In this document: positions 13,047 to 28,632 of the stretch, one piece after another
Layout: every line of letters starts with the position of its first letter
Position numbering within the stretch: position 1 is the first letter of the stretch
Assembly: GCA_026421245.1 (NCBI GenBank)
Contig: JAPKDJ010000039.1
Coordinates: 1 to 36,522, forward strand
DNA length: 36,522 nucleotides
Source: Akkermansiaceae bacterium
GTDB lineage: Bacteria; Verrucomicrobiota; Verrucomicrobiia; Verrucomicrobiales; Akkermansiaceae
Direction of reading: 5' to 3'
Notes under the pieces: generated by a model
Databases searched by the model: none
Seen by the model: only the letters and a program-made list of their open reading frames with translations
What the model was told of the DNA's origin: nothing
Translations under genes and position numbers: made by a program

Positions 13047-14039
13047 ATGAAAAGCACATCCGAATCGCTTGGGGACACCGCCGCCTACCTCCAAAACATC
13101 CGCGAACGCGTTGGCCAAATCATCGTCGGACAGGATGTCGTCGTCGAACGAACGATCATCGCCCTCCTCACCTCAGGCCACCTCCTTTTGGAGGGCATGC
13201 CTGGGCTGGCCAAAACCCTCCTCGTCAACACCATTTCGAAGGCCCTCCATCTGGACTTCCGCCGCGTCCAATTCACCATCGATCTTCTCCCTTCCGACAT
13301 CCTCGGCAGCGAGATCCTCGACGAAAAGTCAGGCGAGTTTCGTACTCACAAAGGGCCCATCTTTACCAACCTCCTCCTCACCGACGAGATCAACCGGGCT
13401 GCCCCAAAGGTTCAAGGAGCTCTCCTCGAATCCATGCAAGAGCGCAAGGTCACCCTCGGCAACGAAACCTTCTCCCTCCCCACCCCCTTTCTTGTCATCG
13501 CGACCCAGAACCCCATCGAACAATCCGGCACTTTTGAACTCCCCGAAGCCCAGCTCGATCGCTTCATGCTCTGTCATCGCCTCAGCTACCCCACCCCCGA
13601 GGAAGAGGAGGAAATCCTCCGCCGCAACCTCAAGCTCGGCGTTGAGAAAAAAGGCGAAGGCGCCGTCGCCCGCACTGAGTTCGATCTTGTCACCGACGAC
13701 GCCGTCGGCACCCCGCAGGATCTCATCGATGCCATGGAAGCCACCCACAAAATCCACGTCAGCGAAGTCTTACTCAAACACGTTGTCGACATCGTCGAAC
13801 GGACCCGCCAACACCCGGATCTTGAACTTGGTTGTTCCCCCCGTGCCGGAATCTCTCTCCTCAAAGCCTCCCGCGCCCGCGCCCTCATCCACGGCCGCAA
13901 CTACGCTATCCCCGAAGACCTTTTCGCCCTCGCCGAAGACGTCTGCCTCCACCGCATCCGCCTCTCCTACGAAGCCCTCGCCGAAGGAAAAACCCCACAA
14001 GGAATCCTCCAACAAATCCTCAACGATTCGATTTCATAG
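13047..14039 (+). CDS. MoxR-family AAA+ ATPase
   Basis: MoxR ATPases are chaperone-like AAA+ proteins that work with VWA-domain partners to mature or remodel envelope complexes. The 330-residue product has the family length. Visible: IIVGQDVVVER at about 25-35, Walker A GMPGLAKT (residues 50-57), Walker B LLLTDE (109-114), sensor-1 region IATQNPIEQSGTFELPEAQLDRF (151-173) including the conserved Asn and an Arg-finger candidate, and a C-terminal lid domain with GCSPRAGISLLKASRARA. It heads a plus-strand cluster with DUF58 and two VWA genes, the standard MoxR/Bat arrangement. It is separated from the DUF58 gene by about 150 bases containing a repeat, which is unusual since these genes normally overlap or nearly touch. 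Confidence 0.95.
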   Translation: MKSTSESLGDTAAYLQNIRERVGQIIVGQDVVVERTIIALLTSGHLLLEGMPGLAKTLLVNTISKALHLDFRRVQFTIDLLPSDILGSEILDEKSGEFRTHKGPIFTNLLLTDEINRAAPKVQGALLESMQERKVTLGNETFSLPTPFLVIATQNPIEQSGTFELPEAQLDRFMLCHRLSYPTPEEEEEILRRNLKLGVEKKGEGAVARTEFDLVTDDAVGTPQDLIDAMEATHKIHVSEVLLKHVVDIVERTRQHPDLELGCSPRAGISLLKASRARALIHGRNYAIPEDLFALAEDVCLHRIRLSYEALAEGKTPQGILQQILNDSIS

Positions 14040-14120
14040 CCACCAATATCAAAGAGGCGCCTACACCACCTCGCAATTGGCTTTGAGTTTTGCGCTTTGA
14101 GCTCGCTCTCCGAATCGGCC

Positions 14121-14183
14121 TCCATAGTTCCTCAACCAAGCATTCAAAATTCAACATTAGACGTTCAGCGCTCGACGTCCCCT
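14121..14183 (+). repeat. Candidate interspersed intergenic repeat
   Basis: Between moxR and DUF58 is a stretch made of short degenerate units resembling ATTCAAAATT, CAACATTAGACGTT and CAGCGCTCGACGTC. Such low-complexity 'ATTCAAAATTCAACATT...GACGTT' stretches are, as I recall, seen as dispersed intergenic repeats in some Verrucomicrobia and Planctomycetes genomes. It is open in the DUF58 frame, so an automatic caller may start DUF58 at the TTG at 14097 and include it in the protein. Confidence 0.45.
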
Positions 14184-14186
14184 CCC

Positions 14187-15041
14187 ATGCCGCTCCTCAC
14201 CGACCAACAAACCAAGCCACTCGACTCACGCCAATTCCTTCTCGCGGTCAAGCGGCTTGCTGATTCCCTTTCTTATGGAACGGATCGCTCCCCCTTCCTC
14301 GGCCAGGGTTTGGAATACGTCCAATCCCGCCACTACGTGCCCGGCGACCCCGTCAAAGCCATCGACTGGCGCGTCACCGCCCGCACCGGCAAGGTCCACG
14401 TCAAACAATACGAGTCCCCAAAATCTCTTCCCGTCTGGTTCGTCGTCGATACCTCCGCTTCCATGACTCTCTCCTCTACGAAGGTTTCAAAATACCAAAT
14501 CGCCACCCAAATTGCCGGCGGTCTTGCCCTCGCCTCCCTCGACCGAGTCTCCCCTGTCGGAATCCTCGGAGCCGGCTCTCGGGACCTCAACATCAAGCCC
14601 TCCCTCTCCCGCGAAACCATCCTCCAATGGCTCCACCAACTTCGCACCTACGATTTCCACGAACCCACCCGCCTCGGCCAAAAACTTCTCTCCCTCAATC
14701 CTTCTCTTCCCGAACGCGCCCTCATTTTTATCCTCTCGGACCTCCACGATCCAGACGCCATCCCAGCCCTCAAACTCCTCGGTCACCGTCACGATCTCGT
14801 CGTCCTCCCTCTTCGCGACCCCGCCGAAGACCACCTTCCGGGAGCCGGAATTATCCGCTCCCGCGAAGTCGAAACCGGCCGCGAAACCACCCTCACCGCG
14901 AAAAAAAAGTTCACCTCCCTAAAGGATCTGACCTCTGCTCTCAAAAAGGCCTCCCTTGACCACTTTCCCATTCACACCGACCGCCCCTTCCTCGCCTCCC
15001 TCCGCCTCTACCTCCAGTCCCGCAACCTCCTCGCCCGATGA
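14187..15041 (+). CDS. DUF58 domain protein (MoxR cluster)
   Basis: DUF58 proteins are VWA-like partners of MoxR ATPases. I chose the ATG at 14187, which gives MPLLTDQQTKPLDSRQFL; the frame is open back to a TTG at 14097, but those extra 30 codons derive from a repeat-like stretch and carry no family similarity. The family core is clear: LADSLSYGTDRSPFLGQGLEY, then RHYVPGDPVKAIDWRVTARTG, then KVHVKQYE, then a VWA-type metal site WFVVDTSASM with a downstream FILSDLHDP. The product is about 284 residues, normal for the family, and no membrane segment is evident. It overlaps the next gene by ATGA, so translation is coupled. Confidence 0.92.
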   Translation: MPLLTDQQTKPLDSRQFLLAVKRLADSLSYGTDRSPFLGQGLEYVQSRHYVPGDPVKAIDWRVTARTGKVHVKQYESPKSLPVWFVVDTSASMTLSSTKVSKYQIATQIAGGLALASLDRVSPVGILGAGSRDLNIKPSLSRETILQWLHQLRTYDFHEPTRLGQKLLSLNPSLPERALIFILSDLHDPDAIPALKLLGHRHDLVVLPLRDPAEDHLPGAGIIRSREVETGRETTLTAKKKFTSLKDLTSALKKASLDHFPIHTDRPFLASLRLYLQSRNLLAR

Positions 15042-15820
15042 TCAGACTCCTCCTCTTCATCCTTCTCTCCCTCCACGCTCACGGTTCAAAACTCAGTTTT
15101 GAAAGATCATCTCCCCTCGGCCTCCCCACCACCATCACGGACTACTACATCCCCGGCTCCAAAGTCGAAGTCATCCCGCGCAAAAACAGCGATTCCTCCC
15201 TCGTCATCCGCATCCTCCAAACCAAACCCGCCGCCGACGGCTTTCGCTACGACCTCGAAGTCTACGGACTCGACCCCGGAACGCACAAGCTCTCCGACTT
15301 CCTCCGCTACGTTGACACGAAATCTCCCATCTCCCATCTCCCCGCCACCTTCCAGATCACCACGCAATATCCCCTCGAGACCCTCCCGAAACCTTCCGAA
15401 CTGGAAACCGTGTCTCCCGAAAAACTCGGAGGCTACAAAAAACTCGTCATCGCGCTGGGCCTCTTCTGGCTCGTAATCCTCCTTCTCATCATCTTCTACC
15501 GCAAAAAACAAATCGCTGATTTTACCGCCCCCCCCCCTCCCCCCTCCCTTCACGAAAAGCTCCATGTCCTGGTCACCAACGCTTCTCGTGGCAACCTCAC
15601 CGATCATGAAAGAGCCAATCTTGAACGACTTGTTCTCGGCCACTGGAAAGAAAAAATTCCCGCTCTCGAAAAACTCCCACCGGCTCGCGCCCTGGTCCAA
15701 CTCCGGGCCCACCCCGAAGCCTCCCCCCTCATCCTGAAACTCGAAGAGTGGCTCCATGCCCCCAAGACCACCCTCTCTCAAAACGACATCTCCACCCTCC
15801 TCATCCCCTTTCGAAAGTAG
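15038..15820 (+). CDS. Single-pass membrane protein of the MoxR/VWA cluster
   Basis: This 260-residue protein has a signal peptide (MIRLLLFILLSLHAHGS), a periplasmic beta-rich domain of about 115 residues, one membrane helix (about 135-157, IALGLFWLVILLLIIFYRKK) and a cytoplasmic tail. The tail begins with a short polyproline run encoded by a C-rich tract near 15528-15548. I do not recognise a named family; by position and topology it resembles the DUF4381/BatD-type small membrane proteins that occur between DUF58 and VWA genes. It overlaps the DUF58 stop by ATGA. The C-terminal segment (HERANLERLVLGHWKEKI) looks like an adaptor helix pair. Confidence 0.75.
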   Translation: MIRLLLFILLSLHAHGSKLSFERSSPLGLPTTITDYYIPGSKVEVIPRKNSDSSLVIRILQTKPAADGFRYDLEVYGLDPGTHKLSDFLRYVDTKSPISHLPATFQITTQYPLETLPKPSELETVSPEKLGGYKKLVIALGLFWLVILLLIIFYRKKQIADFTAPPPPPSLHEKLHVLVTNASRGNLTDHERANLERLVLGHWKEKIPALEKLPPARALVQLRAHPEASPLILKLEEWLHAPKTTLSQNDISTLLIPFRK

Positions 15821-15909: not shown

Positions 15910-16827
15910 GTGTCTTTCGCCCACCCCATTGTCCTCCTCGCTCTCGCCATTCCGGTCCTCCTGATCGTTTTCCAATGGATGACCCGCGCCCGCGCCCTCC
16001 CCCTTCCCTTTGACCACCAAAAGTCCCCCCACCGCAAGTGGCTCGCCCTACTCCTCAACCTCGTCAACACCCTCCCCTATCTCGTCCTCGCCACTCTTAT
16101 CCTCATCGCCGCTGGCCCTCGAACCTTCGAACGGCCCAAAAGCGAACGCGAGCTCACCAACATCATGTTTTGTCTCGATGTCTCCGGCTCCATGACGGCC
16201 TCCTTTGGCCCGGGTGACCGATACGATTCCGCCATGGAATCTCTCAACGAATTCCTCGACTACCGAAAAGGAGATGCCTTTTCCCTCATGGTCTTTGGGG
16301 GCGACAACCTCCGCTGGGTCCCCCTCACCACCGATGTCTCGGCCTTCCGCCACGCCCCTCCCTTCCTTCACCCAAGCAAACTCCCCAAATGGTTCAACGG
16401 TGGAACTTTTATTGGCAAGGCGCTCAAGCAGGCTGAAAAAGAACTCCTCACCACCGAGACGGGCGACCGCTTGATCATCCTCCTTTCCGATGGCGCCAGC
16501 TTCGACCTCTCCGATGGCAACGACGTTAAAATCGCTCGTAGTCTCGCAGACAACAATATCACGGTTTTTGCCATCCACATTGGAGGCGGCGCCCCTCCCG
16601 CCGAAGTCTCCGTCATTTCTTCCATCACCGGCGGAGAAACTTTCGCAGCCGGTGATCCCAACGCCCTGAAGGCCGTCTTCCAACGAATCGACGCAATGGC
16701 CCAAGCGTCCCTCGTCCGACTCACCCCAGATCCGGTCGACTACTTCCGCCCCTACCTCATCACCGCTTTCTCGCTCGCCGGCACCTATCTCCTCACCTTG
16801 TTTGGTCTTCGCTACACCCCTTGGTAA
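15910..16827 (+). CDS. VWA-domain membrane protein, BatA-like
   Basis: The 305-residue product has two N-terminal membrane helices (about 5-24 and 45-68), a von Willebrand factor A domain and a C-terminal helix (about 276-297), the BatA topology. The metal-ion adhesion site DVSGSM is at residues 90-95, with the second Thr in GGTFIGKAL and the third Asp in IILLSDGASF, so the MIDAS looks complete. The start is a GTG at 15910 giving MSFAHPIVLLALAIPVLL, which fits the family. In BatA proteins the VWA domain faces the periplasm and is thought to be acted on by MoxR; the substrate is unknown. The gap before it carries three CAATCGT units. Its stop overlaps the next start (TAATG). Confidence 0.92.
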   Translation: MSFAHPIVLLALAIPVLLIVFQWMTRARALPLPFDHQKSPHRKWLALLLNLVNTLPYLVLATLILIAAGPRTFERPKSERELTNIMFCLDVSGSMTASFGPGDRYDSAMESLNEFLDYRKGDAFSLMVFGGDNLRWVPLTTDVSAFRHAPPFLHPSKLPKWFNGGTFIGKALKQAEKELLTTETGDRLIILLSDGASFDLSDGNDVKIARSLADNNITVFAIHIGGGAPPAEVSVISSITGGETFAAGDPNALKAVFQRIDAMAQASLVRLTPDPVDYFRPYLITAFSLAGTYLLTLFGLRYTPW

Positions 16828-17792
16828 TGTTCATCCCCATCCTCGTCGCCACCACCACCGCAGTTCTCGCCTGCGGTGCAGAAGCATTGCACACCCGTCG
16901 CATCGCCAAGGTCCGCCATCTTGCCTTCGGCCCCGATGGCCACTTCTCCGCCCTCACCATCCTCGCCCCCATTCTTCGGGTTCTCTTCCTCTCCGCCCTT
17001 GCCTGGGCCCTCACCACCCTCTTCCTAATCGAACCGAAAGCCCACCGTTCCCAGGTCAAGGAAGTCGAGCCCAACGAGCGTCGGCACCTTCTCCTTGTCG
17101 TCGATGTTTCTCCCTCCATGCGCCTTCAGGACTCCGGGGAAAACGAGGGACTCTCGCGCACCAAGCGCGCCTCCAAACTCGTGCAATCCCTCCTCAAACG
17201 CGTGACCGATGAGAAACTCCACATCACCATGGTCGCCGTCTACAATGGAGCGAAACCCGTCGTTCAGGAAAGCCGCGATGCCGAAGTCATCCTCAACTTC
17301 CTCGACGGACTTCCTCTCTCCTCCGTTTTTCCCGTGGGCAAAACCCGTCTTTTCGATGGCCTCGAAGAAGCGGCGAAAATCGCCCGCGACTGGCCACCTA
17401 ACTCCGCCACCCTCCTCCTCGTGAGCGATGGCGATACCGTCCCCGCCACCGGCATGCCCAAAATGCCTCCCTCCATCAATGGAGCCCTCATCATGGGAGT
17501 TGGCAACCCCACCAAAGGTTCCCTGATCGATGGTCGACAATCCCGCCAAGACGTCGGAGCCCTCCAGCAAATTGCCACCCGCCTCGGAGGACAATATCAT
17601 GATGGCAACGTCCGTCACGTTCCCACCTCTGTCCTCAACGAACTCGGCTCGCTCAAAACCGATCAGGACAGTCTCAAACTCACCCTTCGGGAATATGCCC
17701 TCATCGCCGGAGTCACTTCCGCTCTTGGTCTCGCTCTCCTTCCGGTCTTCCTCTACTTCTTCGCCTCTCCTTTCAAGCCGGGATCTGCGTAG
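16827..17792 (+). CDS. VWA-domain membrane protein, BatB-like
   Basis: I chose the ATG at 16827, which overlaps the previous stop as TAATG, over the TTG at 16821. The protein is 321 residues: an N-terminal hydrophobic helix, a second helix (about 45-69), a VWA domain and a C-terminal helix (YALIAGVTSALGLALLPVFLYFF). The MIDAS reads DVSPSM (about 93-98), with TLLLVSDGDT supplying the third acidic position. A Pro replaces the usual Gly within DxSxS, which should still bind metal. It lacks the C-terminal TPR region of classical BatB; a separate TPR gene lies downstream at 24164. Together with the preceding VWA protein it probably forms the periplasmic face of the MoxR system. Confidence 0.9.
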   Translation: MFIPILVATTTAVLACGAEALHTRRIAKVRHLAFGPDGHFSALTILAPILRVLFLSALAWALTTLFLIEPKAHRSQVKEVEPNERRHLLLVVDVSPSMRLQDSGENEGLSRTKRASKLVQSLLKRVTDEKLHITMVAVYNGAKPVVQESRDAEVILNFLDGLPLSSVFPVGKTRLFDGLEEAAKIARDWPPNSATLLLVSDGDTVPATGMPKMPPSINGALIMGVGNPTKGSLIDGRQSRQDVGALQQIATRLGGQYHDGNVRHVPTSVLNELGSLKTDQDSLKLTLREYALIAGVTSALGLALLPVFLYFFASPFKPGSA

Positions 17793-17812: not shown

Positions 17813-20800
17813 ATGAAATTCCTTCCTCTTTTTACCGCTCTCGTCCTTCCGCTTACCGCAGTCGACAGCGTCGTCACCTTTAACGAAATCCACTACAACC
17901 CGAAAGGGACTGCAGAGAGCGGAGAGTGGATCGAAGTTCACAACCAGATGGCCATCAATGTCGATCTCTCGGGCTGGAAATTGACCGGCGGGGTTGATTT
18001 CATTTTTCCGGAAAGAACGACCATTCCCGGCGGAGGATATTATCTCATCGCAAAAGATCCCACCAATCCCGCCCTCGCAGGTTTCAACGTAACTGGCCCG
18101 TTCGAGGGCAATCTCTCAAACAACGGCGAAACCCTCCGACTCCGCAGCCGGTCCGCCCGCCTCATGGATGAGGTCGATTACGCCGACTCCGGACAATGGC
18201 CCGTCGGCCCTGATGGCTCGGGAGCCACCCTCACAAAAATCGAAGGCTCTCTTCTCTCGGGTAAAAGTTCGTCATGGCGAACCAGCACTCAAATCGGAGG
18301 CACCCCTGGAGCGGCTAACTTTCCCCAGGCCAATGTTCCTGTCCCCCATGTCTTCGTCGCCAATGATGCTTCATGGAAATTCGATGACTCTGGTAACACC
18401 CCGGCCGCAAGCTGGAACTCCACCGCCTTTAACGACAGCACCTGGAGCAACGGACAAAATCTCTTTGGCACCGAAGCTGGCGATGGCCCGTCCATTCTCA
18501 CTGTCACCGAACACCTTGTGGAACGATTCCGCGCCAGTGATCTCACCTTGAACAATGGTCAAACCGTCACTTCCTGGCCAGACACCGCCACCTCCGATGG
18601 CCAAACCCAAACCGCCACTTCCGGAGGCAATCCCACCTTTGCCACCAATGCCACCCCGTCCGGCGAACCGGCCGTCCGCTTTGATGGCAACGCCCAACTC
18701 CGCACCTCCACTGCTCCCGGCATCGGCAGCACCTCAGGCTTCGTCTACTTCGCCGTCGTCAAGGCCAACTCCACTCCCGGAAATGGCGGCGTCGCGAACG
18801 GATCTCCCCCCTACATTTGGGATCGTGACAGCAGTGTTTCAGATCCTCCCCTCACCTCCCTCAAATCAGATGGCGGACGCTTCGCTTTCCAAAAACGTCA
18901 CAACAACGGCTCCGGCCTCGGAGGACCCGTTTCCTCGACTTCCATTTCCACCAGTGACTATCAAATCGTCGCGATCCGGCGCAATCGAACCGCAAACCAA
19001 TTCGAACTCTGGGTCGATGGCGTTCGCGAAGCCACTAATAGCGACAGCGGCTCTGCTCTTAGCCCCCAGCCCATTGTCATTGGCAACCACTCGGGCGGCT
19101 CCGGAGGCTTCGATGGCGACATCGCCGAACTTCTCATCTACGAGGACGAATTGACCCATACTGAATTCGAAGCAGTCGGCGCCTACCTCGAATCACGCTA
19201 CGGACTCGACACCGCCTTTCCCGGTTCCGCCGTCACCACTCCGATCACTGTGAACGGTTCAACCACATATTTTCGACAAGCTTTCACTTTTAATGGAACA
19301 CCCAGCAACACCTCGATTCGGCTAAACCATCTCATCGCCGACGGTGCCGCGGTCTATCTCAACGGCGTCGAAATTCAGCGCACCAACATGCCCGCTGGAA
19401 CGATCTCTCATAGTTCAAAAGCTCTCAGCGATATTTCTTCGCCAACTTCATCAGACTTCATCACGATACCCGGCACCTCGCTTCAGAACGGGAATAATAT
19501 CCTCGCGATCTCACTCCACCCCTCCTCCGGCAATACCTCGACTTCCTTCGCCGCCACTCTCGAAGGCACCGAAACGCCTCCCGATCCCAGTAGCTTTTCC
19601 GGCTTGGTTTTAAATGAAACCTCACCCGCCGGCGACCCAAACTTCTTTGTCGAAGTCACCAACCCTGGAAACATTCCCGTCAGCACCAGTGGCTACCTTC
19701 TCGAAATCAGTGGCAACGCCCCCGCCCTCATTAATCTCCCTGACACCACTCTCAACCCGGGCGACATCCTTCTCCTTGATCAGGCAACACTTGGACAAAT
19801 CCCTTCGGATGCTGACACGCTTTTTCTCCTCACCGGCACCATTCTCACTGACGCTCGGCAAGTGACCAATCGCCTTCGTGGCCTTAGCCCCGCCTACCCC
19901 GGCCAGTGGATCTTCCCAAACACCGCCACTCCCGGCGTCACAAACTCCTTCGCCCTCAACACCAACATTGTCATCAACGAAATCTGCTACAACCCACCCA
20001 TCATCGATGCCGTCCAAGCCACCATCGTCACGGCTTCCCTCATCGATCGTGGATCAGTGTGGCGCTACAACGAGAAGGGCGACACTCTCGCCGGCGACTG
20101 GGCCTCACAGCCCCACTCCATTGGAGGCAACTGGGAGTTCGGCACAGCCACTCTCGCCTACGATGCCGGCCTCGGCATCACAAACCTCACTAGGCCATCA
20201 AGTAACTTCCCCTCGGTGGTGACCTACTACTTTGAAAGCGATTTTATCCTCACCGCCCAGGAAGCCGCCGATCTGAATAATCTCACTCTAAACCATCGTA
20301 TCGATGATGGTTCCATCTTCTACCTCAATGGCGTTGAACTCGATCGTTACAACATGCCGGCTGGCGAAATCACATCGAGCACCTTCGCCAGTCCCTCGGT
20401 CGGCAATGCCGATTGGGTCGGCGACTACACCGTGCCCGCCCCAAGAGGACTCGCCGTAGAGGGTCTCAACCGCTTCTCAATCGAGGTTCACCAAAATTCC
20501 CTCGGCAGCAGTGACATCACTTTTGACTTTGAGGCCAGGGCGGAGTTTCTCATCAATCCCGCCAGTCCCGCCCGTTCCGGTGACACCCAATGGATCGAAC
20601 TCCACAACCGCGGCACCAAAACCATCGACCTCTCCGCTTGGGACTTCGGCGAGGGAATCAACTACACTTTTCCCGCCGAAACAAGCCTCGCACCGGGAGG
20701 CTATCTCGTCGTTACCAATACCCCCGCCACTCTCGCCAGCCAGCATCCTGGCATCGTAATCCTCGGACCATTTGGAGGAAGTCTCAGCCGACGCAGTGAA

Positions 20801-23800
20801 ACGATTTCCCTCCGAGACCAATTCAACAATCCCGTCGATAATCTCCGCTACTTCGACGGAGGGAAATGGCCCTCCAAGGCCGATGCCGGAGGATCAACCA
20901 TCGAGCTGATTGACCCCGATGCCGATAATTCCCTCCCCGCTGCCTGGGCTGACAGCGATGAACTTTCCCGCACTTCCTGGCAGACCTACACCTTCCGCTC
21001 CACCGCCGCCGCAAGCCCGGTGGGCCGCGACAGCCAATGGCGCGAGTTCATCTTTGGCATGCTCGAGGCAGGAGAGATTCTCATCGACGACCTCACCGTT
21101 ACCGAAAACCCAGACGACTCCGCCGTTGCTATGATCAGCAACGGAGATTTCGAAAGCGCAAACCTCACGACTTGGCGTGCCCTCGGAAGCCATAAAGATG
21201 TCGCCATCGTCCCCGACCCCGATGGTGGAGGAAATGTCCTCTATCTAAATGCCACCGGCTCGACCGAGCACCAACATAACCACCTCGAAACCACCCTCGC
21301 CAACGGCGAAACCGTCGTCAATGGCCGCGAATACGAAGTGTCATTCCGGGCCCGCTGGTTGAGTGGCAATCACCTCCTCCACACCCGCCTCTATTTTAAC
21401 CGCATCCCTCACACCTTCGATCTCGAACGCCCCGATATTTATGGCACTCCGGGGGCTCCCAACTCCACCCTAGTTCCCAACGCGGGCCCCACCACCCAGA
21501 ACCTCGCCCACTCCCCCATTATCCCCGCTGCCGGAGAATCCGTCACCGTGAGCATTGAGGCCAATGACCCCGATGGCCTCGAAACCATCACTTTGCACTA
21601 CCGTGTCGAAGGTGGAGCTTTTTCCACCACGACCATGTCCCAACTCGGAAGCAGTTCGACATGGCAGGGCAACATTCCCGGACAAAGTTCAGGAAATGTC
21701 GTCCAATTCTACCTCACCGCCAGCGACACCCTTGGCGCGAGTTCCTTCATCCCGGCAGATGGCCCGGATTCCCGCGCCATGTTTGAGGTCGAAGACGGTC
21801 GCGCTGCCACCACGGCTTGCATCAATAACTTCCGAATCATCATGGATCCCGCAGATGACTCATGGATGCATACCCCGCGCAATCTCATGAGCAATGGTCG
21901 CATTCCTTGCACCGTCATCGATCGTGAAGGTAGGGCTTACTACAATACCGGCGTCCGCATCAAGGGCTCCCAACGTGCCCGTGCCCAAAGGAACCGCGTG
22001 GGATTCAACGTCGGGTTCCCCTCCGATCAACTCTTTCGAAACGTTCATCGCTCAGTCGCCATCGACCGCTCCGAAGGCCAGGTCGTTGGTCAAAGGGAAC
22101 TTTTGTTCGACCTCATGGCAACCTCCTCGGGAGGCATCCCCGGTGAGTTCAACGACCTCGCCTATGTCATCTCTCCCCAGTCTGCTCATACCAGTCCCGC
22201 CATCCTTCAAATGGCACGCTTTGGCTCCGTCTTCCTCGAGGATCAGTTCGAAAATGGCAGTGACGGCACCGTCTACGAATACGAACTCGTTTACTACCCC
22301 ACTTCAACCGATGCCGGGGGATACAAAATCCCGGAACCCGACCGAGTCATCGGCCGCGACATCAATAACATGGGAGACAACCCCGAGGCCTATCGCTGGA
22401 CCTACCTTATCAAAAACAACCAAGAGTTCGACGACTACCAACCCGCGATGGCTCTTGGAAAACAATTTAGCAAATCTACGGTCGAGTTTAATTCCAGCGT
22501 TGCCGAGGTCCTCGATGTCGATCAATGGCTCCGTGCGCTGGCCTACTCCTGTGCTTCAGGTTCAGGAGACTCCTTCTATCCCAACTCCAATCACAACGGT
22601 CAATTCTACGGCCGCCCCGATGGAAAAGTTCTCTACTTCCCCCACGACATTGACTTCGCCTTCAATTCCACCCGCGGAATTTTTGAGAATTCAGAACTCA
22701 ATCGTATCATCACCAATCAAACCTACCGTCGGGCCTATCTCGCCCATCTCTACGACATCTGCACCACGGTATACAATCAAGCCTGGATGGAGCCATGGAC
22801 AAGCCACTTTGATCAATGTGTCCCCGGCAGAAATGTCTTCTCCAACGATCTCAGCTACATCAACACGCGGTCCAACTACATCCTTGGTCAGATCAATTCC
22901 CAAGTCTCCTCCGTCAACTTCGCCATCACCACCAATGGCGGCAACAACTTCACGACAGCCGACACCCCGGTTACCTTGGCCGGCACCGGCTGGGTCGATG
23001 TCCATGAAATCCGCCTCTCCACCGGTTCTCCTCTCACCCACACCTGGACCACCACCGACGACTGGGAACTTTCCCTCGCCCTCGGACAGGGGGTCCACTC
23101 CATCACCCTCGAGGCTTATGACCGATTGGGGAACCTCCATGGGGTTGATAGCATCACCATCACACGCGACGGTGGCTCTGATACTCCGAACATGACTAAT
23201 CTCGTCGTTTCGGAAATCTACTACAATCCATCCGGACAGGACGAATCAACCGAGTTCATCGAACTCCTCAACGTTGGAAACAGTTCCCTCGATCTTAGCG
23301 GCACGCGCTTCACCGCAGGAGTCGATTTCACCTTCCCCGAAGGAACTACCCTCGCTTCAAATGAACGCGTTCTCGTCGTAGCCAATCGCACTTCCTTCGA
23401 AACCGCCTTCGGCCTCGGCTTGAATATTGCCGGCGAGTTTGAGAACGGAACGGTTCTCAGCAACGGCGGAGAACTCATCACCCTTCTGAACACTACTGGA
23501 GGGATAGTACGATCCTTCACCTATGACGACAGCACTCCATGGCCCAAGCAAACGGATGGAGATGACTTCAGCCTCGTTCTTCTCAACCCGGCGGACCTAC
23601 CCGACCACAAGCTTGCTACCAGTTGGAGGGCAAGTTCCCATCCGGGAGGAAACCCCGGCACCTCCGATATCTGTCCTGCCTTCGCCGGCGATATTAACGC
23701 CGACAGCGATCATGATGGAATTCCAGCTCTCATCGAACATTTCCTCGGCACCTCCGACGGAGCCTCAGACGATACCCGCAATGTCTTCCAGGTTGGTTCT

Positions 23801-24043
23801 ATATCCGATGGCGGACAAACCTATCCTACCTTTGAAGTGACCTACAAAGTTGGGACAGACGACGTCCAGGCCTCCGCTTATCGTTCGCCCAATCTTCAAA
23901 GCTGGTCGAACACCCCCGATGACATCGTTGTCCAAAGTCACACCTCCAATGAGGATGGCACCGCCACCATCATCTGGCGAAGCACGGAGACAATTTTCGA
24001 AACACCACGCCAGTTCTTCCAACTCCGTGCCACGACACCGTAG
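17813..24043 (+). CDS. Giant secreted lamin-tail/LamG/CotH protein
   Basis: This 2076-residue protein has a signal peptide (MKFLPLFTALVLPLTAVDS) and many modules. In order, with rough residues: lamin-tail domain (LTD) 1 (20-166); half of a beta jelly roll (178-226); a LamG/concanavalin-like domain (230-467); the other half of the jelly roll (475-590, YFRQAFTF, DGAAVYLNGVEIQRTNMPAG); LTD2 (596-716); the first strand of LTD3 (NIVINEICYNPP, about 718) split from its remainder (926-1050) by a second jelly roll (745-913); a carbohydrate-binding-like module (1050-1215); an Ig/FN-like domain (1223-1330); a CotH spore-coat-kinase-like domain (1337-1693, with FPHDIDFAF near 1609); a Chitobiase_C-like domain (1700-1790); LTD4 (1793-1955); and a tail with a Ca-binding DINADSDHDG repeat near 1960. 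CotH enzymes phosphorylate secreted proteins; activity here is unproven. It starts 20 bases after the BatB-like gene. Confidence 0.9.
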   Translation: MKFLPLFTALVLPLTAVDSVVTFNEIHYNPKGTAESGEWIEVHNQMAINVDLSGWKLTGGVDFIFPERTTIPGGGYYLIAKDPTNPALAGFNVTGPFEGNLSNNGETLRLRSRSARLMDEVDYADSGQWPVGPDGSGATLTKIEGSLLSGKSSSWRTSTQIGGTPGAANFPQANVPVPHVFVANDASWKFDDSGNTPAASWNSTAFNDSTWSNGQNLFGTEAGDGPSILTVTEHLVERFRASDLTLNNGQTVTSWPDTATSDGQTQTATSGGNPTFATNATPSGEPAVRFDGNAQLRTSTAPGIGSTSGFVYFAVVKANSTPGNGGVANGSPPYIWDRDSSVSDPPLTSLKSDGGRFAFQKRHNNGSGLGGPVSSTSISTSDYQIVAIRRNRTANQFELWVDGVREATNSDSGSALSPQPIVIGNHSGGSGGFDGDIAELLIYEDELTHTEFEAVGAYLESRYGLDTAFPGSAVTTPITVNGSTTYFRQAFTFNGTPSNTSIRLNHLIADGAAVYLNGVEIQRTNMPAGTISHSSKALSDISSPTSSDFITIPGTSLQNGNNILAISLHPSSGNTSTSFAATLEGTETPPDPSSFSGLVLNETSPAGDPNFFVEVTNPGNIPVSTSGYLLEISGNAPALINLPDTTLNPGDILLLDQATLGQIPSDADTLFLLTGTILTDARQVTNRLRGLSPAYPGQWIFPNTATPGVTNSFALNTNIVINEICYNPPIIDAVQATIVTASLIDRGSVWRYNEKGDTLAGDWASQPHSIGGNWEFGTATLAYDAGLGITNLTRPSSNFPSVVTYYFESDFILTAQEAADLNNLTLNHRIDDGSIFYLNGVELDRYNMPAGEITSSTFASPSVGNADWVGDYTVPAPRGLAVEGLNRFSIEVHQNSLGSSDITFDFEARAEFLINPASPARSGDTQWIELHNRGTKTIDLSAWDFGEGINYTFPAETSLAPGGYLVVTNTPATLASQHPGIVILGPFGGSLSRRSETISLRDQFNNPVDNLRYFDGGKWPSKADAGGSTIELIDPDADNSLPAAWADSDELSRTSWQTYTFRSTAAASPVGRDSQWREFIFGMLEAGEILIDDLTVTENPDDSAVAMISNGDFESANLTTWRALGSHKDVAIVPDPDGGGNVLYLNATGSTEHQHNHLETTLANGETVVNGREYEVSFRARWLSGNHLLHTRLYFNRIPHTFDLERPDIYGTPGAPNSTLVPNAGPTTQNLAHSPIIPAAGESVTVSIEANDPDGLETITLHYRVEGGAFSTTTMSQLGSSSTWQGNIPGQSSGNVVQFYLTASDTLGASSFIPADGPDSRAMFEVEDGRAATTACINNFRIIMDPADDSWMHTPRNLMSNGRIPCTVIDREGRAYYNTGVRIKGSQRARAQRNRVGFNVGFPSDQLFRNVHRSVAIDRSEGQVVGQRELLFDLMATSSGGIPGEFNDLAYVISPQSAHTSPAILQMARFGSVFLEDQFENGSDGTVYEYELVYYPTSTDAGGYKIPEPDRVIGRDINNMGDNPEAYRWTYLIKNNQEFDDYQPAMALGKQFSKSTVEFNSSVAEVLDVDQWLRALAYSCASGSGDSFYPNSNHNGQFYGRPDGKVLYFPHDIDFAFNSTRGIFENSELNRIITNQTYRRAYLAHLYDICTTVYNQAWMEPWTSHFDQCVPGRNVFSNDLSYINTRSNYILGQINSQVSSVNFAITTNGGNNFTTADTPVTLAGTGWVDVHEIRLSTGSPLTHTWTTTDDWELSLALGQGVHSITLEAYDRLGNLHGVDSITITRDGGSDTPNMTNLVVSEIYYNPSGQDESTEFIELLNVGNSSLDLSGTRFTAGVDFTFPEGTTLASNERVLVVANRTSFETAFGLGLNIAGEFENGTVLSNGGELITLLNTTGGIVRSFTYDDSTPWPKQTDGDDFSLVLLNPADLPDHKLATSWRASSHPGGNPGTSDICPAFAGDINADSDHDGIPALIEHFLGTSDGASDDTRNVFQVGSISDGGQTYPTFEVTYKVGTDDVQASAYRSPNLQSWSNTPDDIVVQSHTSNEDGTATIIWRSTETIFETPRQFFQLRATTP

Positions 24044-24163: not shown

Positions 24164-24739
24164 ATGCGTATTATTCTTGCCACACTTTGGCTCCTCGTCC
24201 CCCTCGGTTTCGCTGCCTACCATTTCGGTCCCGGACAGGAACTGGTCAAACTCGATGACACCGAAGCTCTCCTCTCAGACGCCCGCGCCGCTGCTGCCGA
24301 TGAAAATTGGCCCTCCGCCATCGAGTCTTACCAAAAGGCCCTCGCCAAACTCCCCAAGGAAAAGAAAGAAACTTCGGTTCGCATTCAGCTCGAAATCTCC
24401 AAAGCCAAAATGCAAAGCTCCCGGCTCCCCGAGGCTCGCGAGGACCTTGCTGAGCTCGTTTCCCAACTCAATGACGACTCATCCACTCCTTCGGAACTGA
24501 AGGAAGAAGCCATTTCCGCTCTCGCCAATGCCCGCTACTACATGACCTACCTCATGAAGTTGGAAGGCCTTCCTGCCGAAGAGTGGGAGCCTGAAATCGA
24601 AGCTGCCCGCCAAGAATACAAGTTCCTCGCCCAAACCGGCTCCAACAAGGAAAAGCATCTTGCCGACCTCGAATCAGCCATTCGCCTGGCACGCGCCGAG
24701 CCAACCGAGCTCTACGGCCTCCCCATCCCCAGCCAATGA
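24164..24739 (+). CDS. Small TPR protein, BatC-like; possible Sec/readthrough extension
   Basis: The conventional product is 191 residues: an N-terminal hydrophobic anchor or signal (MRIILATLWLLVPLGFAAYHF) and a helical TPR region (NWPSAIESYQKALAKLPKE, then SRLPEAREDLAELVSQL). TPR proteins occupy this place in Bat operons (BatC/BatE) and act as assembly scaffolds. The stop at 24737-24739 is TGA, and the same frame then stays open for 36 codons to a TAG at 24848-24850. That extension begins QGCSSGGRPKK and is rich in Lys, Pro, Gly and Ser, like the disordered tails of BatC-type proteins. A hairpin follows the TGA at SECIS-like spacing. So the gene may end at 24850 with selenocysteine at codon 192, may be a full-length gene with a recent nonsense mutation, or may simply end at 24739. 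The extended form would leave 35 bases before the next gene. Confidence 0.8.
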   Translation: MRIILATLWLLVPLGFAAYHFGPGQELVKLDDTEALLSDARAAAADENWPSAIESYQKALAKLPKEKKETSVRIQLEISKAKMQSSRLPEAREDLAELVSQLNDDSSTPSELKEEAISALANARYYMTYLMKLEGLPAEEWEPEIEAARQEYKFLAQTGSNKEKHLADLESAIRLARAEPTELYGLPIPSQ

Positions 24740-24767
24740 CAAGGTTGCAGCTCGGGCGGTCGCCCGA
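24737..24767 (+). promoter_or_regulatory. Candidate bacterial SECIS element after in-frame TGA
   Basis: The TGA is followed 12 bases later by a 6-bp perfect stem (TCGGGC at 24752-24757 with GCCCGA at 24762-24767) capped by the tetraloop GGTC. The loop starts 18 bases after the TGA, the same spacing and the same GGUC loop start as in the E. coli fdhF SECIS as I know it. The stem lacks the bulged U of the E. coli element, which is not strictly conserved between species. The sequence is GC-rich, so a short hairpin by chance is possible. Confidence 0.4.
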
Positions 24768-24885
24768 AGAAAAGTGCCAAGCCAGGGAAGAAGCCCGGCG
24801 ATTCACGCGGTGCTGGAGAAGGTCCTCCTGCTGATGGCTCCGGATCCTAGCCTATCCCTCTCGCCCACCTCACGATCCCATCTTC

Positions 24886-27800
24886 ATGAAACTTAGGAAT
24901 TTCCTACCGCTTTCGCTTACCCTGATCTCAGCATCAGCCCAGCAATCAAAACTCCTCCAAATCGAAAAGATTCCCGCCGGCGTCATCATCACGGAAAGCA
25001 ATGTTTCCGCCGTTCCCAGTAACCTCCCTCCCTCCGCCCAGCCACGCGGCCCCCAGACGCCCAAGCAACAGCGTTCACGCATGTTGCAAACCATGGCCAT
25101 CGACCGCTCCCCCTCCGGAATACTCGCTGCCCGGCTTGCCGAAAAAAACGAAGCCACCAAGCCTCCCGTCCCTGAGCCTCCCGTCGATCCTAGCATCGAA
25201 CCACCCGCTGTCAGCCCCCAGATCCTCAAGCAACGTGAAAACCAAGCGAAAGCTGTCGCTTTCAAAAAAGACTTCGAAATATTCCGACGCGACGTCGTTC
25301 TCGGCCGCTGGGACCAGGTCAAGACCTACCTCGAAGCACTCCCAGACAACGACTCCACCACTGCCTTCCGCCAACTCGTCACCCAACTGAATTCGCCTGT
25401 CACCATCCGGCCCCGCAAGGAACTCACCGGTCTCGGTGCCAAACAGCATAAGCAACCGCAATATCTTCGGCCCGCCGAATTCCTCGCCCTCACCGACGCC
25501 GCTAAAAAAGCCCCCAACACCCAACTCCTCACCCAACTCGCCGGGCTCATCAAAGGAGAAAAAAAACCTCCCCGCGAATTCTTCGCCACCCTTGCCAAAG
25601 GCACCCGCTACTTCGGAAGTCAGAACGAAGAGGCCAAAGCCCGCTCCGCTCGCCTTCTCATCGAAGCTGGGCACCTTGAAGAAGTTTCACCTTTTCTCCC
25701 CGATCCCGAAACAGCCCGCACTTCTAAAAACCACAGCTCCCTCAACCTCCTCGCCCGCTACCACGCTGAATCCCACACCGCAGATCGGGGCAAGGAACAC
25801 CTTCAAAAGGCCTGGGACCTTTCCCTCGGCATCATCCGGGAAAAAGAAGCTCCCCTCAACGAACGCGCCGAAGCCCTCTACCGCGCCCTCGCCCTCGTCC
25901 CCGATCTCGAAGACGGGACCGGTCGCCAGTGGCTCACCAAAACCTTCGCCGAGGCCTCGGCCGAAGGCTTCGAAATCCTCGCCACCGTCGGCACCCTTGC
26001 CGCACAGCTTCGCGAACACCGCTCACCCGATTTCCGCCTCGAGCAACTCAAACTTCAATCCGCTGCGGTCGCCGCCCTCACCGACAACAACGACATCGAC
26101 CTCGCCCCCTGGCAGGAAATTCTCACCCTCTATGTCCTCAACTGGAATACCGAAGCCGAACGCTCCTACCGCCTCGACTCTTCCAATTCCATGCGTCCCC
26201 AGGCCCAGGTTGATCCCTTCGGAAATATCTTCTACTCCCGCTATCGTCAGCCCGTTCAGCCAACCAACTCTCGTGTGACCCCGGCCATCTCCTCGGGCGA
26301 ACTCCTCCGCACAAGGCCCGACGAAAAATGGCTGGCCCGAATCGATCCGCCCGTGCGTATCGAAAATCTCACCAACGCCGCCAAACTCTATCTCAAAGTC
26401 AAAGAAGAGGAAAAGGCCTTCCCCATCTTAAAGGAACTCGCTTCCTCACGCCCCAAGGACACAAAGGAGCTCGTTCGCGAAATGATCCGCGTCTGGGGAG
26501 AAAACCATAACCCCAACCAACAATCCCGTTACCGCTCCAGCTACTCGTATTTCTACGGATACAACCAACGCGCCGAAACCATCCCCCTTACCCGCTCAAA
26601 GCAGGAACGAAACCTCAAGCTTCTTGCCAAAATGGTTCAGGAGGTCCGCGGCCTCGGCCTCGACGAAGATTTTCAGGAGGAATTTGCCGACGCCTTCATT
26701 GCGGCCCACTCGCAAGCCGAAGTTTGGCGCGTCGAAGCTCTCGCCGCAGTCTTCGGGGAAACCTCCAAACTCGACCCAAAAACCACCACCTCCCTTCTTC
26801 GCCGCATGCGCGGAAATCTTGCCCGCCTCTGGCCGAATCCCAAGGTTCAAGAGCAGGCCAAAACCAACCGCAAGGACAAGGAACTCGAAGCCCAAATTTT
26901 CAAAGGTTACTCCGCTGCCAAAAACCTCACCCTCGACGCTCTCGATCAGCATCCCAACAGCTGGGCGCTGAAAGTCCAGCTGGCCTCGCTGAAATACGAG
27001 GAATCTAACTACAAGTCCGGCCTGGCTTCCAACCCCGAACACTCGACCACCAAGGGCTTCGCGCTTGAGGATCTCGAAGCCGCCGCTGCCGAATACATCA
27101 CCACCCTCCCACTCGAGGACGAAAAGAACGAATCCACCGAGACCTTTACGACTTGGTTTTACGCCGCCCTCGGCTCCCCCAATCTCGCCACGCTTAAGGC
27201 CGAACATCAACCCATTCCCGCGGAATACCCCAAAATCAAGGCCTCCCTTGCGAGCATTCCCGAACTTGCACAAAAACGCCATCTCGATGACTTCGCCAAA
27301 ACAATCAACGCCCGCCTCGCCAATGTCTCCGCCGACCTGAAATATCGCTTCCTCGAAGCCGCCCTCCAAATCACAGGGCCCCATGAACAGGTCGACGAAG
27401 CCTCCCGCGTCTTCCAATATTACCAGGATCTCGTCACCGAGATCGAACTCGATGTTCACCTCGATGGGCCCGACCGCATCAACGCATCCGAACCCTTCGG
27501 GCTTTTCGTCAACCTCCGCCACACCAAAGAAATCGAACGAGAATCAGGTGGCTTCCAACGTTACCTCATCAACCAGAATAATGCCCCATATTCCTATAAT
27601 TATGGCCGCCCCACCGAAGATTACCGCGACAAATTTGAAAAAGCTGCCCGCTCTGTTCTCGAAGAGCACTTCGAAGTGACCTCCCTCACCTTCCACAACT
27701 CTAAGGTGATCAGCCGAACCGACTCCCGTGAAGGTTGGACTCTCACCCCCTATGCCTACTTCCTCCTCAAGCCCAAGGGGCCCGAAGTCGACAGCATCCC

Positions 27801-28632
27801 TCCGCTCAAGATCGACCTCGATTTCCTCGACACCTCGGGCTACGTCGTCCTCCCCATCTCTTCCGCCGCCATCCCCATCGATGCCAGCAAGGCAACTGCC
27901 GCCCGGCCCTATCGTGATCTCTCACTTACCATGATTCTTGATCAACGTGAGGCCGAAAAAGAAGGCCACCTCGCCCTCGAAATCCGCGCCTCCGGCCACG
28001 GGCTTGTTCCCCCGCTCGATGAACTCATCGAACTCCCCCTCGATGGCTTCGAAATCACCTCCACCGACGACCGCGAATTGCAGGTCGACGAGCTCGACGC
28101 CCGCACCGACGACGGAGCCCCCGTCTCGACCCATGAATGGCGCTTCATCCTAGAGCCCAAAAATGGCAAACTCCCTTCCAAATTCGCCTTCCCCCCTGTC
28201 CTCGCCACTCTTTCCACGAAGAAAGACGAAGGTCTCACTCTTCAAAAATACGATGACGTTGACCTCGTTTCGGTCGAAGAAACCACCGCCCTCGCCGCCG
28301 GATCGGACTCACCCTCCATGCTTCTCTGGCTCGTTCCAGTGGCGCTCCTCGCCGGCATCGCCGCCTTCTTCCTCTTCCGCAAAAAGGCTCCGGTTGAACA
28401 GCTCGCCCAAGGTCCCAACCTCCCCACCACCCTCACTCCCGTGAGCGTCCTCGCTTTCCTCGAAAACCTCCAGCGCAACGGCCAACTCTCTGAAAAAGAA
28501 GGCCTCGCCCTCTCCGCCTCAATCAAATCCCTCAAGGACCGTTCCTTCGGTCCCAGCCGGGATGTCCCCGACACCGAGGAACTTCAAGAGATGGCCACCC
28601 GCCATATTACTCCTCTGCAAAAGGCCGGATAG
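24886..28632 (+). CDS. Large membrane-anchored protein in BatD position
   Basis: The 1248-residue product has a signal peptide (MKLRNFLPLSLTLISASAQQ), a very large extracytoplasmic region, one membrane helix near the C-terminus (about 1144-1165, MLLWLVPVALLAGIAAFFLF) and a cytoplasmic tail of about 80 residues. The N-terminal two thirds looks helical and repeat-like (TPR-type solenoid, for example AGHLEEVSPFLPDPE and ELASSRPKDTKELVREMI). From about residue 850 a beta-sandwich-like part begins (EIELDVHLDGPDRINASEPF). That is the topology of BatD (beta domains, late membrane helix, cytoplasmic tail), but about twice the length. I do not recognise a specific family. It follows the TPR gene closely, supporting membership of the MoxR/VWA machine. 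Confidence 0.75.
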   Translation: MKLRNFLPLSLTLISASAQQSKLLQIEKIPAGVIITESNVSAVPSNLPPSAQPRGPQTPKQQRSRMLQTMAIDRSPSGILAARLAEKNEATKPPVPEPPVDPSIEPPAVSPQILKQRENQAKAVAFKKDFEIFRRDVVLGRWDQVKTYLEALPDNDSTTAFRQLVTQLNSPVTIRPRKELTGLGAKQHKQPQYLRPAEFLALTDAAKKAPNTQLLTQLAGLIKGEKKPPREFFATLAKGTRYFGSQNEEAKARSARLLIEAGHLEEVSPFLPDPETARTSKNHSSLNLLARYHAESHTADRGKEHLQKAWDLSLGIIREKEAPLNERAEALYRALALVPDLEDGTGRQWLTKTFAEASAEGFEILATVGTLAAQLREHRSPDFRLEQLKLQSAAVAALTDNNDIDLAPWQEILTLYVLNWNTEAERSYRLDSSNSMRPQAQVDPFGNIFYSRYRQPVQPTNSRVTPAISSGELLRTRPDEKWLARIDPPVRIENLTNAAKLYLKVKEEEKAFPILKELASSRPKDTKELVREMIRVWGENHNPNQQSRYRSSYSYFYGYNQRAETIPLTRSKQERNLKLLAKMVQEVRGLGLDEDFQEEFADAFIAAHSQAEVWRVEALAAVFGETSKLDPKTTTSLLRRMRGNLARLWPNPKVQEQAKTNRKDKELEAQIFKGYSAAKNLTLDALDQHPNSWALKVQLASLKYEESNYKSGLASNPEHSTTKGFALEDLEAAAAEYITTLPLEDEKNESTETFTTWFYAALGSPNLATLKAEHQPIPAEYPKIKASLASIPELAQKRHLDDFAKTINARLANVSADLKYRFLEAALQITGPHEQVDEASRVFQYYQDLVTEIELDVHLDGPDRINASEPFGLFVNLRHTKEIERESGGFQRYLINQNNAPYSYNYGRPTEDYRDKFEKAARSVLEEHFEVTSLTFHNSKVISRTDSREGWTLTPYAYFLLKPKGPEVDSIPPLKIDLDFLDTSGYVVLPISSAAIPIDASKATAARPYRDLSLTMILDQREAEKEGHLALEIRASGHGLVPPLDELIELPLDGFEITSTDDRELQVDELDARTDDGAPVSTHEWRFILEPKNGKLPSKFAFPPVLATLSTKKDEGLTLQKYDDVDLVSVEETTALAAGSDSPSMLLWLVPVALLAGIAAFFLFRKKAPVEQLAQGPNLPTTLTPVSVLAFLENLQRNGQLSEKEGLALSASIKSLKDRSFGPSRDVPDTEELQEMATRHITPLQKAG

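Follow-up and report, generated by a model that had tools for sequence, protein, structure and literature searches.

Does the TGA within a small TPR-like gene of this DNA end the protein, or does it encode selenocysteine (Sec)? The gene lies in the stretch of 36,522 nucleotides analysed here (the window), where it starts with the ATG at 24164 and, past the TGA, stays open for 36 codons to a TAG at 24848-24850, leaving a gap of 35 bases to the next gene's ATG at 24886. The original prediction had read this TGA as Sec, followed by a SECIS-like hairpin; its positions for the TGA (24737-24739) and the TAG, its 36-codon extension and its 35-base gap were all recovered. We are highly confident that the best explanation is Sec at codon 192 of a 228-residue TPR-like Bat/MoxR-VWA subunit with a U-x-x-C arm, probably redox-active. 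The reading turns on the following features.

24164..24850, + strand: predicted gene for a TPR-like selenoprotein of 228 residues, with Sec at 192 and a TAG stop at 24848-24850
24737..24739, + strand: Sec codon TGA, residue 192; in-frame TGA in 63 counted loci, TGC/TGT in 24 read relatives
24737..24748, + strand: U-Q-G-C motif, Sec192 and Cys195, the sole Sec/Cys of the window protein
24740..24847, + strand: disordered tail after Sec, rich in Gly, Pro and Lys (alignment, selection, model pLDDT)
24800-24847, + strand: conserved tail end D-S-R-G-A-G-x-G-P-P-x-D-G-S-G-S, recurring in aligned Sec/Cys forms
24752..24767, + strand: SECIS-type hairpin TCGGGC[GGTC]GCCCGA, 6-bp stem, GGTC loop at 24758-24761, 18 bases after the TGA

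Given the local base composition, an open run of 36 codons would arise by chance with a probability of about 0.37. The hairpin (6 bp, GGTC, 18 nt, -10.2 kcal/mol) agrees with a published SECIS model that asks for a loop of 3-9 nt, a stem of 4-16 bp, G in the first two loop positions, a distance of 16-37 nt from the UGA and an energy of -7.5 kcal/mol or lower (PMC13188914 section 5). The predicted likeness to E. coli K-12 fdhF (NC_000913.3, L086) also stands, as GGTC begins 18 bases past the Sec TGA in both. When the downstream codons of relatives were reshuffled synonymously, a generic SECIS-like hairpin appeared in 54% of the products. Since open frames of this length and generic hairpins are both common, the evidence from the window alone is weak, and it is the comparative evidence that is decisive, and strong.

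Searching 260 genomes of the window's family gave a match in 52, with an in-frame TGA in 24 of the 52; within this search, TGA at the homologous codon was seen in L001-L023 and L059/L096. Public genome contigs, scanned as well, yielded 35 loci, of which six carry titles of Planctomyces or Planctomycetota kin, and 57 genomes of a 392-genome Planctomycetota sample had a match, comprising 34 with TGA at the homologous codon, 14 other substantial matches and nine weak partial ones. After duplicate removal we counted 63 TGA loci, some of which share an identical hairpin sequence, and these span Verrucomicrobiota and Planctomycetota. Roseibacillus persicicus (L052) and Rubritalea profundi (L047) are among the carriers of the TGA form. 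Left out of the counts were the nine weak partial genomes, partial matches of about 20 bits, two loci flagged by script but with the TGA at the gene end (L180, L181), and L041. This last locus (NYTN01000073.1) is a TGA form of 83% identity; the short contig that carries it is recorded under the title Rhodobiaceae and is probably a misbinned verrucomicrobial one.

Cysteine takes the place of Sec in 24 read relatives, through TGC in 10 and through TGC or TGT in 14 more; distant homologues lack it. In an alignment of 35 rows, a chosen subset of the homologues, Sec/Cys occupy positions 192 and 195 without exception, in keeping with the U-x-x-C junction that had been proposed, and the tail end recurs there, in varied form, in Sec and Cys forms alike. 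The tail is conserved between close Sec and Cys forms. Close homologues thus run through codon 192 with TGA or a Cys codon and have the tail in common, which answers a check that the original prediction had suggested. It had also named two outcomes that would speak against it, namely the absence of selB/selC together with homologues ending near residue 191, and another sense codon at this position with no hairpin conservation; neither holds for the close homologues.

Selection on the tail was assessed in eight gapless orthologues out of the 23 family loci L001-L023. Their dN/dS is 0.13 in the tail versus 0.09 upstream of the TGA, and pN exceeds pS in the other two frames of the tail, and across the 63 loci the in-frame UGA has conserved coding sequence on both sides. 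Synonymous change (pS) is 0.28 over the ten hairpin codons, as compared to 0.61 upstream and 0.72 further on. Low pS joined to low dN/dS is the signature of a segment under joint constraint on its protein and its RNA structure.

The hairpin itself was compared across loci. A GGTC-loop hairpin with at least four clean pairs is present in 31 of 32 TGA loci, the exception (L020) having a stem mismatch, and absent from all ten Cys loci tested. Five of those ten have some generic SECIS-like hairpin, and a bare GGTC string follows the Cys codon in one of 14 further Cys loci (L093; string match alone). Synonymous reshuffles yield a GGTC-loop hairpin in 2.1% of cases on average, and in 1.1% for the window gene. 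By a simple ungapped stem energy, -7.5 kcal/mol is reached by 20 of the 32 loci, and by the same measure fdhF itself reaches only -2.0. The loop is GGUC in 51 of the 63 TGA loci and GGUUC in the other 12. Spacings in the 51 are 18 (23 loci), 21 (19), 27 (4), 39 (3), 33 (1) and 24 (1); where the spacing is long (33 or 39), a second TGA precedes the loop by 21 bases, the hairpin of L155-L157 lying 39 nt from the first UGA and 21 nt from the second. All 12 GGUUC loops belong to one Planctomycetota group (L166-L177) and sit at spacing 18, with a mismatched stem in six. Within 32 distinct 7-pair stems, 87.1% of cells are paired versus 55.3% in shuffles, and the covariation score is 0.696 versus 0.181, with 0 of 500 shuffles as high, values that favor structure somewhat through the anchoring of stems on the loop and the choice of the best-pairing GGTC. 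At least one double (compensatory) change occurs in each of the seven stem pairs tested, and pairing is absent from the two outer positions of the stem in 13 and 12 of the 32 distinct sequences, respectively. Judged from these alignments, the hairpin is conserved with covariation across the TGA loci.

These patterns bear on the possibility that the TGA is a true stop, with a functional protein of 191 residues and an open tail left over from a nonsense mutation or a decayed end. Such an origin would be in line with an open run that is not unusual in length (p ~0.37) and with the distant homologues that have no Cys pair, but it is scarcely credible given a TGA in 63 loci, a tail dN/dS of 0.13, covariation in the hairpin and Cys orthologues that translate the same tail. 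A recent nonsense mutation in particular, the main alternative in the original prediction, is ruled out, as the TGA recurs in 63 loci and purifying selection acts on the tail. We also rejected an altered genetic code, since UGA is an ordinary stop in the window, where it terminates five of the 18 listed ORFs, and in orthologues; some TGA-bearing orthologues (L019, L058, L064) themselves end at a TGA stop.

The window's own genome (G000) has the genes for Sec insertion: selA, selB, selC and selD, which had been singled out for a check, are all over their cut-offs. Its tRNA-Sec, with a TCA anticodon (UCA), lies at G000:C152:11649-11737 and scores 55 bits against a cut-off of 47, and SelA and SelB both exceed theirs. 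The SelD gene (L089, C68:142009-142938) has its own in-frame TGA, in the motif SCGGUASK, and its product is likely a selenoprotein itself. No GGUC loop was seen in this SelD gene, whose best stem has the loop GTC at +33, unlike the SECIS of the TPR-like gene. Sub-cut-off matches to tRNA-Sec and SelB occurred in all 14 control genomes and presumably represent other tRNAs and elongation factors; we therefore restricted our counts to matches over the cut-off.

On this basis SelA is present in 62 of the 63 TGA-form genomes versus 5 of the 43 genomes with a non-TGA homologue. By set, the counts are 24/24 (family search), 7/8 and 31/31 (further sets) for the TGA genomes and 0/27, 1/2 and 4/14 for the others. 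Fisher's test for TGA form versus SelA gives p = 4e-22, which ignores the kinship of the genomes and is only a guide because related genomes are not independent. The lone TGA genome short of SelA (L058) has a SelA fragment of 91.7 bits, and SelB is over its cut-off in 23 of 24 family TGA genomes, the exception (G229) being 65% complete. Four Planctomycetota genomes and the genome of L065 have the Cys form despite SelA. The 43 include G124, its sequence unread, and not G191, a 23-bit partial match in a SelA-positive genome; G450, G466, G557 and L041 stand outside the SelA tally. Leaky UGA codons exist, and the UGA might be read through by a suppressor or near-cognate tRNA (Trp or Cys, for example) without Sec machinery, with the hairpin as a possible read-through stimulator. 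That the TGA form tracks SelA (62/63 versus 5/43), that the homologues' residue is Cys and that the hairpin has the fdhF SECIS loop and spacing make such read-through highly improbable. Sec insertion at the UGA is, by comparison, strongly supported, and the 63 TGA loci, the Cys relatives, the hairpin covariation and the Sec genes of the genome together uphold the selenoprotein reading of the original prediction.

Several motifs occur besides UxGC: UQGU (L059), UQGCU (L018), USGNGTU (L155-L157), UDGSG, with no Cys (L160), and a C-U motif, GGCUQGSG or GACUQGTG, in the Planctomycetota group L166-L177. Sec is retained while its possible partner shifts, which fits Sec leading the chemistry. With two in-frame TGA codons each, L155-L157, L059 and L018 are double-Sec candidates. 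Many Cys forms have third or further cysteines, and clusters such as C-N-C-K-S-G-K-C and C-K-C-K-G-C-C-N-G-V-C resemble metal ligands in our judgement. The Sec/Cys arm might accordingly bind copper, zinc or a similar metal for the complex, in place of redox exchange. We consider this unlikely: the window protein has just U and one C, and neither L160 (U) nor L155-L157 (two U) has a Cys in the motif region, which would make a poor metal site and fits redox exchange.

The redox-type pair put forward in the original prediction is thus found in the close Sec/Cys forms, but distant homologues of the same family and phylum mostly lack it. Thirteen of these (L097-L109) have no Sec, with C-x-x-C in L101 alone, and L114-L116 have no Cys at the Sec/Cys position. 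Where the pair is missing, the tail is still present and ends similarly, and the five distant homologues with flanks read (L112-L116) adjoin BatA and BatB. The scaffold can therefore do without the pair, and the redox motif marks a subset of a wider family. Within a 60-row tree, unrooted and with several long branches, 12 of 14 Cys rows fall on one branch (100/100), with four label changes in all.

Sec might also be inserted at a UGA whose point is a selenium- or RF2-dependent switch of the arm, the residue itself mattering less. UGA recoding in E. coli is partial, at 30-40% in vivo according to the part of PMC4513850 available to us, so two products would be expected. A switch of this kind seems quite unlikely as the main role, however, for the position is Sec or Cys throughout the 35 aligned rows, further Sec/Cys residues near it change in the manner expected of redox partners, and the tail with its similar end is retained by distant homologues that have no pair.

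The Sec reading places the residue within an arm that follows a helical scaffold. AlphaFold2, run on 29 aligned sequences, returned a model of mean pLDDT 82.8 with a helix at residues 2-21, seven more helices to residue 177, a short helix at 180-183 and then the disordered tail, where pLDDT falls below 50 at residues 204-221 and 225-228.

24167..24226, + strand: N-terminal hydrophobic helix, residues 2-21 (model; probable membrane anchor)
24230..24712, + strand: TPR-like helical domain, residues 23-183 (model helices; TPR_19 below cut-off; fold matches)

The model may be read as about three TPR repeats. Pfam TPR_19 reaches 19.8 bits against a cut-off of 25, and the best Foldseek matches in the PDB, none of which has E <= 0.001, include TPR domains, for example Sgt2 (target TM-score 0.76) and Hop TPR2A. 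The N-terminal helix is probably an inner-membrane anchor and the TPR-like domain probably faces the periplasm, an anchoring and topology that we infer.

We then considered the genes around this one, which make up a Bat-type operon.

13047..14039, + strand: MoxR AAA+ ATPase (PF07726, PF17863)
14097..15041, + strand: DUF58 protein (PF01882)
15038..15820, + strand: BatX (a label coined here), small predicted membrane protein; no Pfam match, conserved in relatives
15910..16827, + strand: BatA-like VWA protein (PF13519; NF047508 BatA match below cut-off; synteny)
16821..17792, + strand: BatB-like VWA protein (PF13519; synteny)
24886..28632, + strand: large protein with a hydrophobic C-terminal segment, called BatD-like for its position and layout; no family scored over its cut-off

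The window thus contains MoxR, DUF58 and VWA genes in order together with the TPR-like gene and a BatD-like gene, the NCBIfam BatA and BatB matches being below their cut-offs; the relatives' pieces end short of MoxR. A BatD-like gene lies downstream in 21 of 22 named relatives, and the piece of the 22nd (L063) ends early. BatB lies at most 300 bases upstream in 15 of the 22 and further upstream in L042, L057 and L064; no BatB was found in L058 within the contig piece compared. When longer flanks were read for two CU-type loci, L183 had DUF58, BatX, BatA, BatB and BatD-like genes around the gene, and L182 had only the BatD-like gene. As BatA, BatB and BatD-like genes flank it in most relatives checked, we assign the gene to the Bat/VWA operon as its TPR-like subunit.

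Other coding sequences of the neighborhood also deserve mention. Between BatB and the TPR-like gene, 17813-24043 encodes a protein of 2076 residues in which lamin-tail, lectin-like, CBM and CotH domains are combined. L032, L034 and L035 likewise have part of a lamin-tail/CotH protein on the upstream side, and none was seen there in the other 19 of the 22 relatives checked. A NuoF-like protein with a thioredoxin-like 2Fe-2S domain and an NADH_4Fe-4S region is encoded at 29944-31623, adjoining an HlyD-type protein. L185 (G237:C164), from the window's genus, is a second Bat-like group with BatB, TPR paralogue and BatD-like matches, and the matched part of its TPR paralogue contains no in-frame TGA.

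Comparison supports the Sec codon, the SECIS, the Sec machinery, the conserved tail and the operon. The hairpin, which starts 12 bases past the TGA, would bind SelB, and SelB would bring Sec-tRNA-Sec to the ribosome at that codon; SelB-dependent Sec insertion is the best-supported step of the mechanism. After inserting Sec at codon 192 the ribosome would translate on as far as the TAG. The 228-residue product would consist of the N-terminal helix, the TPR-like domain and a flexible C-terminal arm with U-x-x-C. The window's BatX, BatA, BatB and BatD-like proteins have only two cysteines in total, so the arm is likely the redox centre; relatives' BatA and BatD-like segments have up to five and six cysteines, respectively, and the arm is therefore not always the sole thiol site. 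The arm would most likely carry out selenol/disulfide exchange (or react with peroxide) in the envelope and pass its redox state to the VWA/MoxR machine. Under low selenium, translation would stop at the UGA and yield an armless protein of 191 residues, and selenium supply may thus set the ratio of armed to bare scaffold. We infer this redox chemistry, the two products and the coupling to Bat. If the reading is true, the Sec centre would be borne by the flexible tail of a scaffold rather than by a catalytic fold. Gene calls under table 11 would cut such genes at the TGA (at residue 191 in the window), and the conserved end would be lost.

No selenoprotein family in Pfam, NCBIfam or the table of a 2026 catalogue accounts for the protein, and we rejected membership of any of these. 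Pfam returned no family at E 0.001 for the TPR-like protein, and the six matches in NCBIfam release 20 at E up to 0.1 were all below cut-off, the best at 17.3 bits against 80. No such protein is among the 119 prokaryotic selenoprotein families and subfamilies of PMC13188914 Table 1 (May 2026), which has no TPR, VWA or Bat entry; the words TPR, VWA, Verrucomicrob- and Planctomycet- are absent from the paper's text. No word beginning with TPR occurs in the available parts of PMC12013277, PMC2398784 and PMC9312934. The main text of PMC4807772 contains neither "TPR" nor "tetratricopeptide", and its Table S9, with selenoprotein candidates from two planctomycetes, may hold an earlier mention. Searches by title, abstract start and open-access full text gave no paper on a Sec-bearing Bat protein among the matches listed. 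We rate the locus as a Bat-system variant that bears Sec and, among selenoproteins, as a new family, a rating whose comparison does not take in GOS_A (from a 2008 ocean survey, with no model or accession) or PMC4807772 Table S9.

By its name, the Bat (Bacteroides aerotolerance) system is linked to oxygen tolerance. A periplasmic reducing role of Bat proteins is proposed, as unproven, in the portion of PMC5700661 available to us, and deletion of bat in Leptospira biflexa gave no oxidative-stress phenotype according to the accessible portion of PMC3557215. Neither portion mentions selenium, and the words "cysteine", "redox" and "thiol" are absent from the PMC5700661 text. A conserved Sec/Cys pair on the TPR-like subunit would offer a residue-level handle on a redox role, and a natural series of Sec, Cys, double Sec and none is available for tests. 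It is a tentative generalization, with a chance somewhat short of even, that in many Planctomycetota and Verrucomicrobiota the Bat system works as an envelope redox machine dependent on selenium, with a Sec arm on its TPR-like scaffold whose partner residues shift (UxxC, UxxU, UxxCU, CU or U alone) and with partial recoding that lets selenium tune the armed share.

The closest known systems each resemble a part of this arrangement. Mammalian thioredoxin reductase carries Sec near its C-terminus in a flexible segment, as the window protein does, but the window chain has no catalytic domain for the Sec arm, as judged from the lack of a Pfam match and from the model. Selenoproteins of the E. coli fdhF type share with it the UGA, SelB-type machinery, a GGUC stem-loop after 18 bases and Cys homologues, while here Sec is located in a disordered tail after a TPR-like scaffold and not in an oxidoreductase fold. 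Bat/MoxR-VWA operons, which encode TPR-bearing proteins in Bacteroides, Leptospira and Borrelia, are matched in the window by MoxR, DUF58, two VWA membrane proteins, a TPR-like protein and a large BatD-like protein; what differs is that the window's TPR-like subunit bears Sec/Cys in a C-terminal arm.
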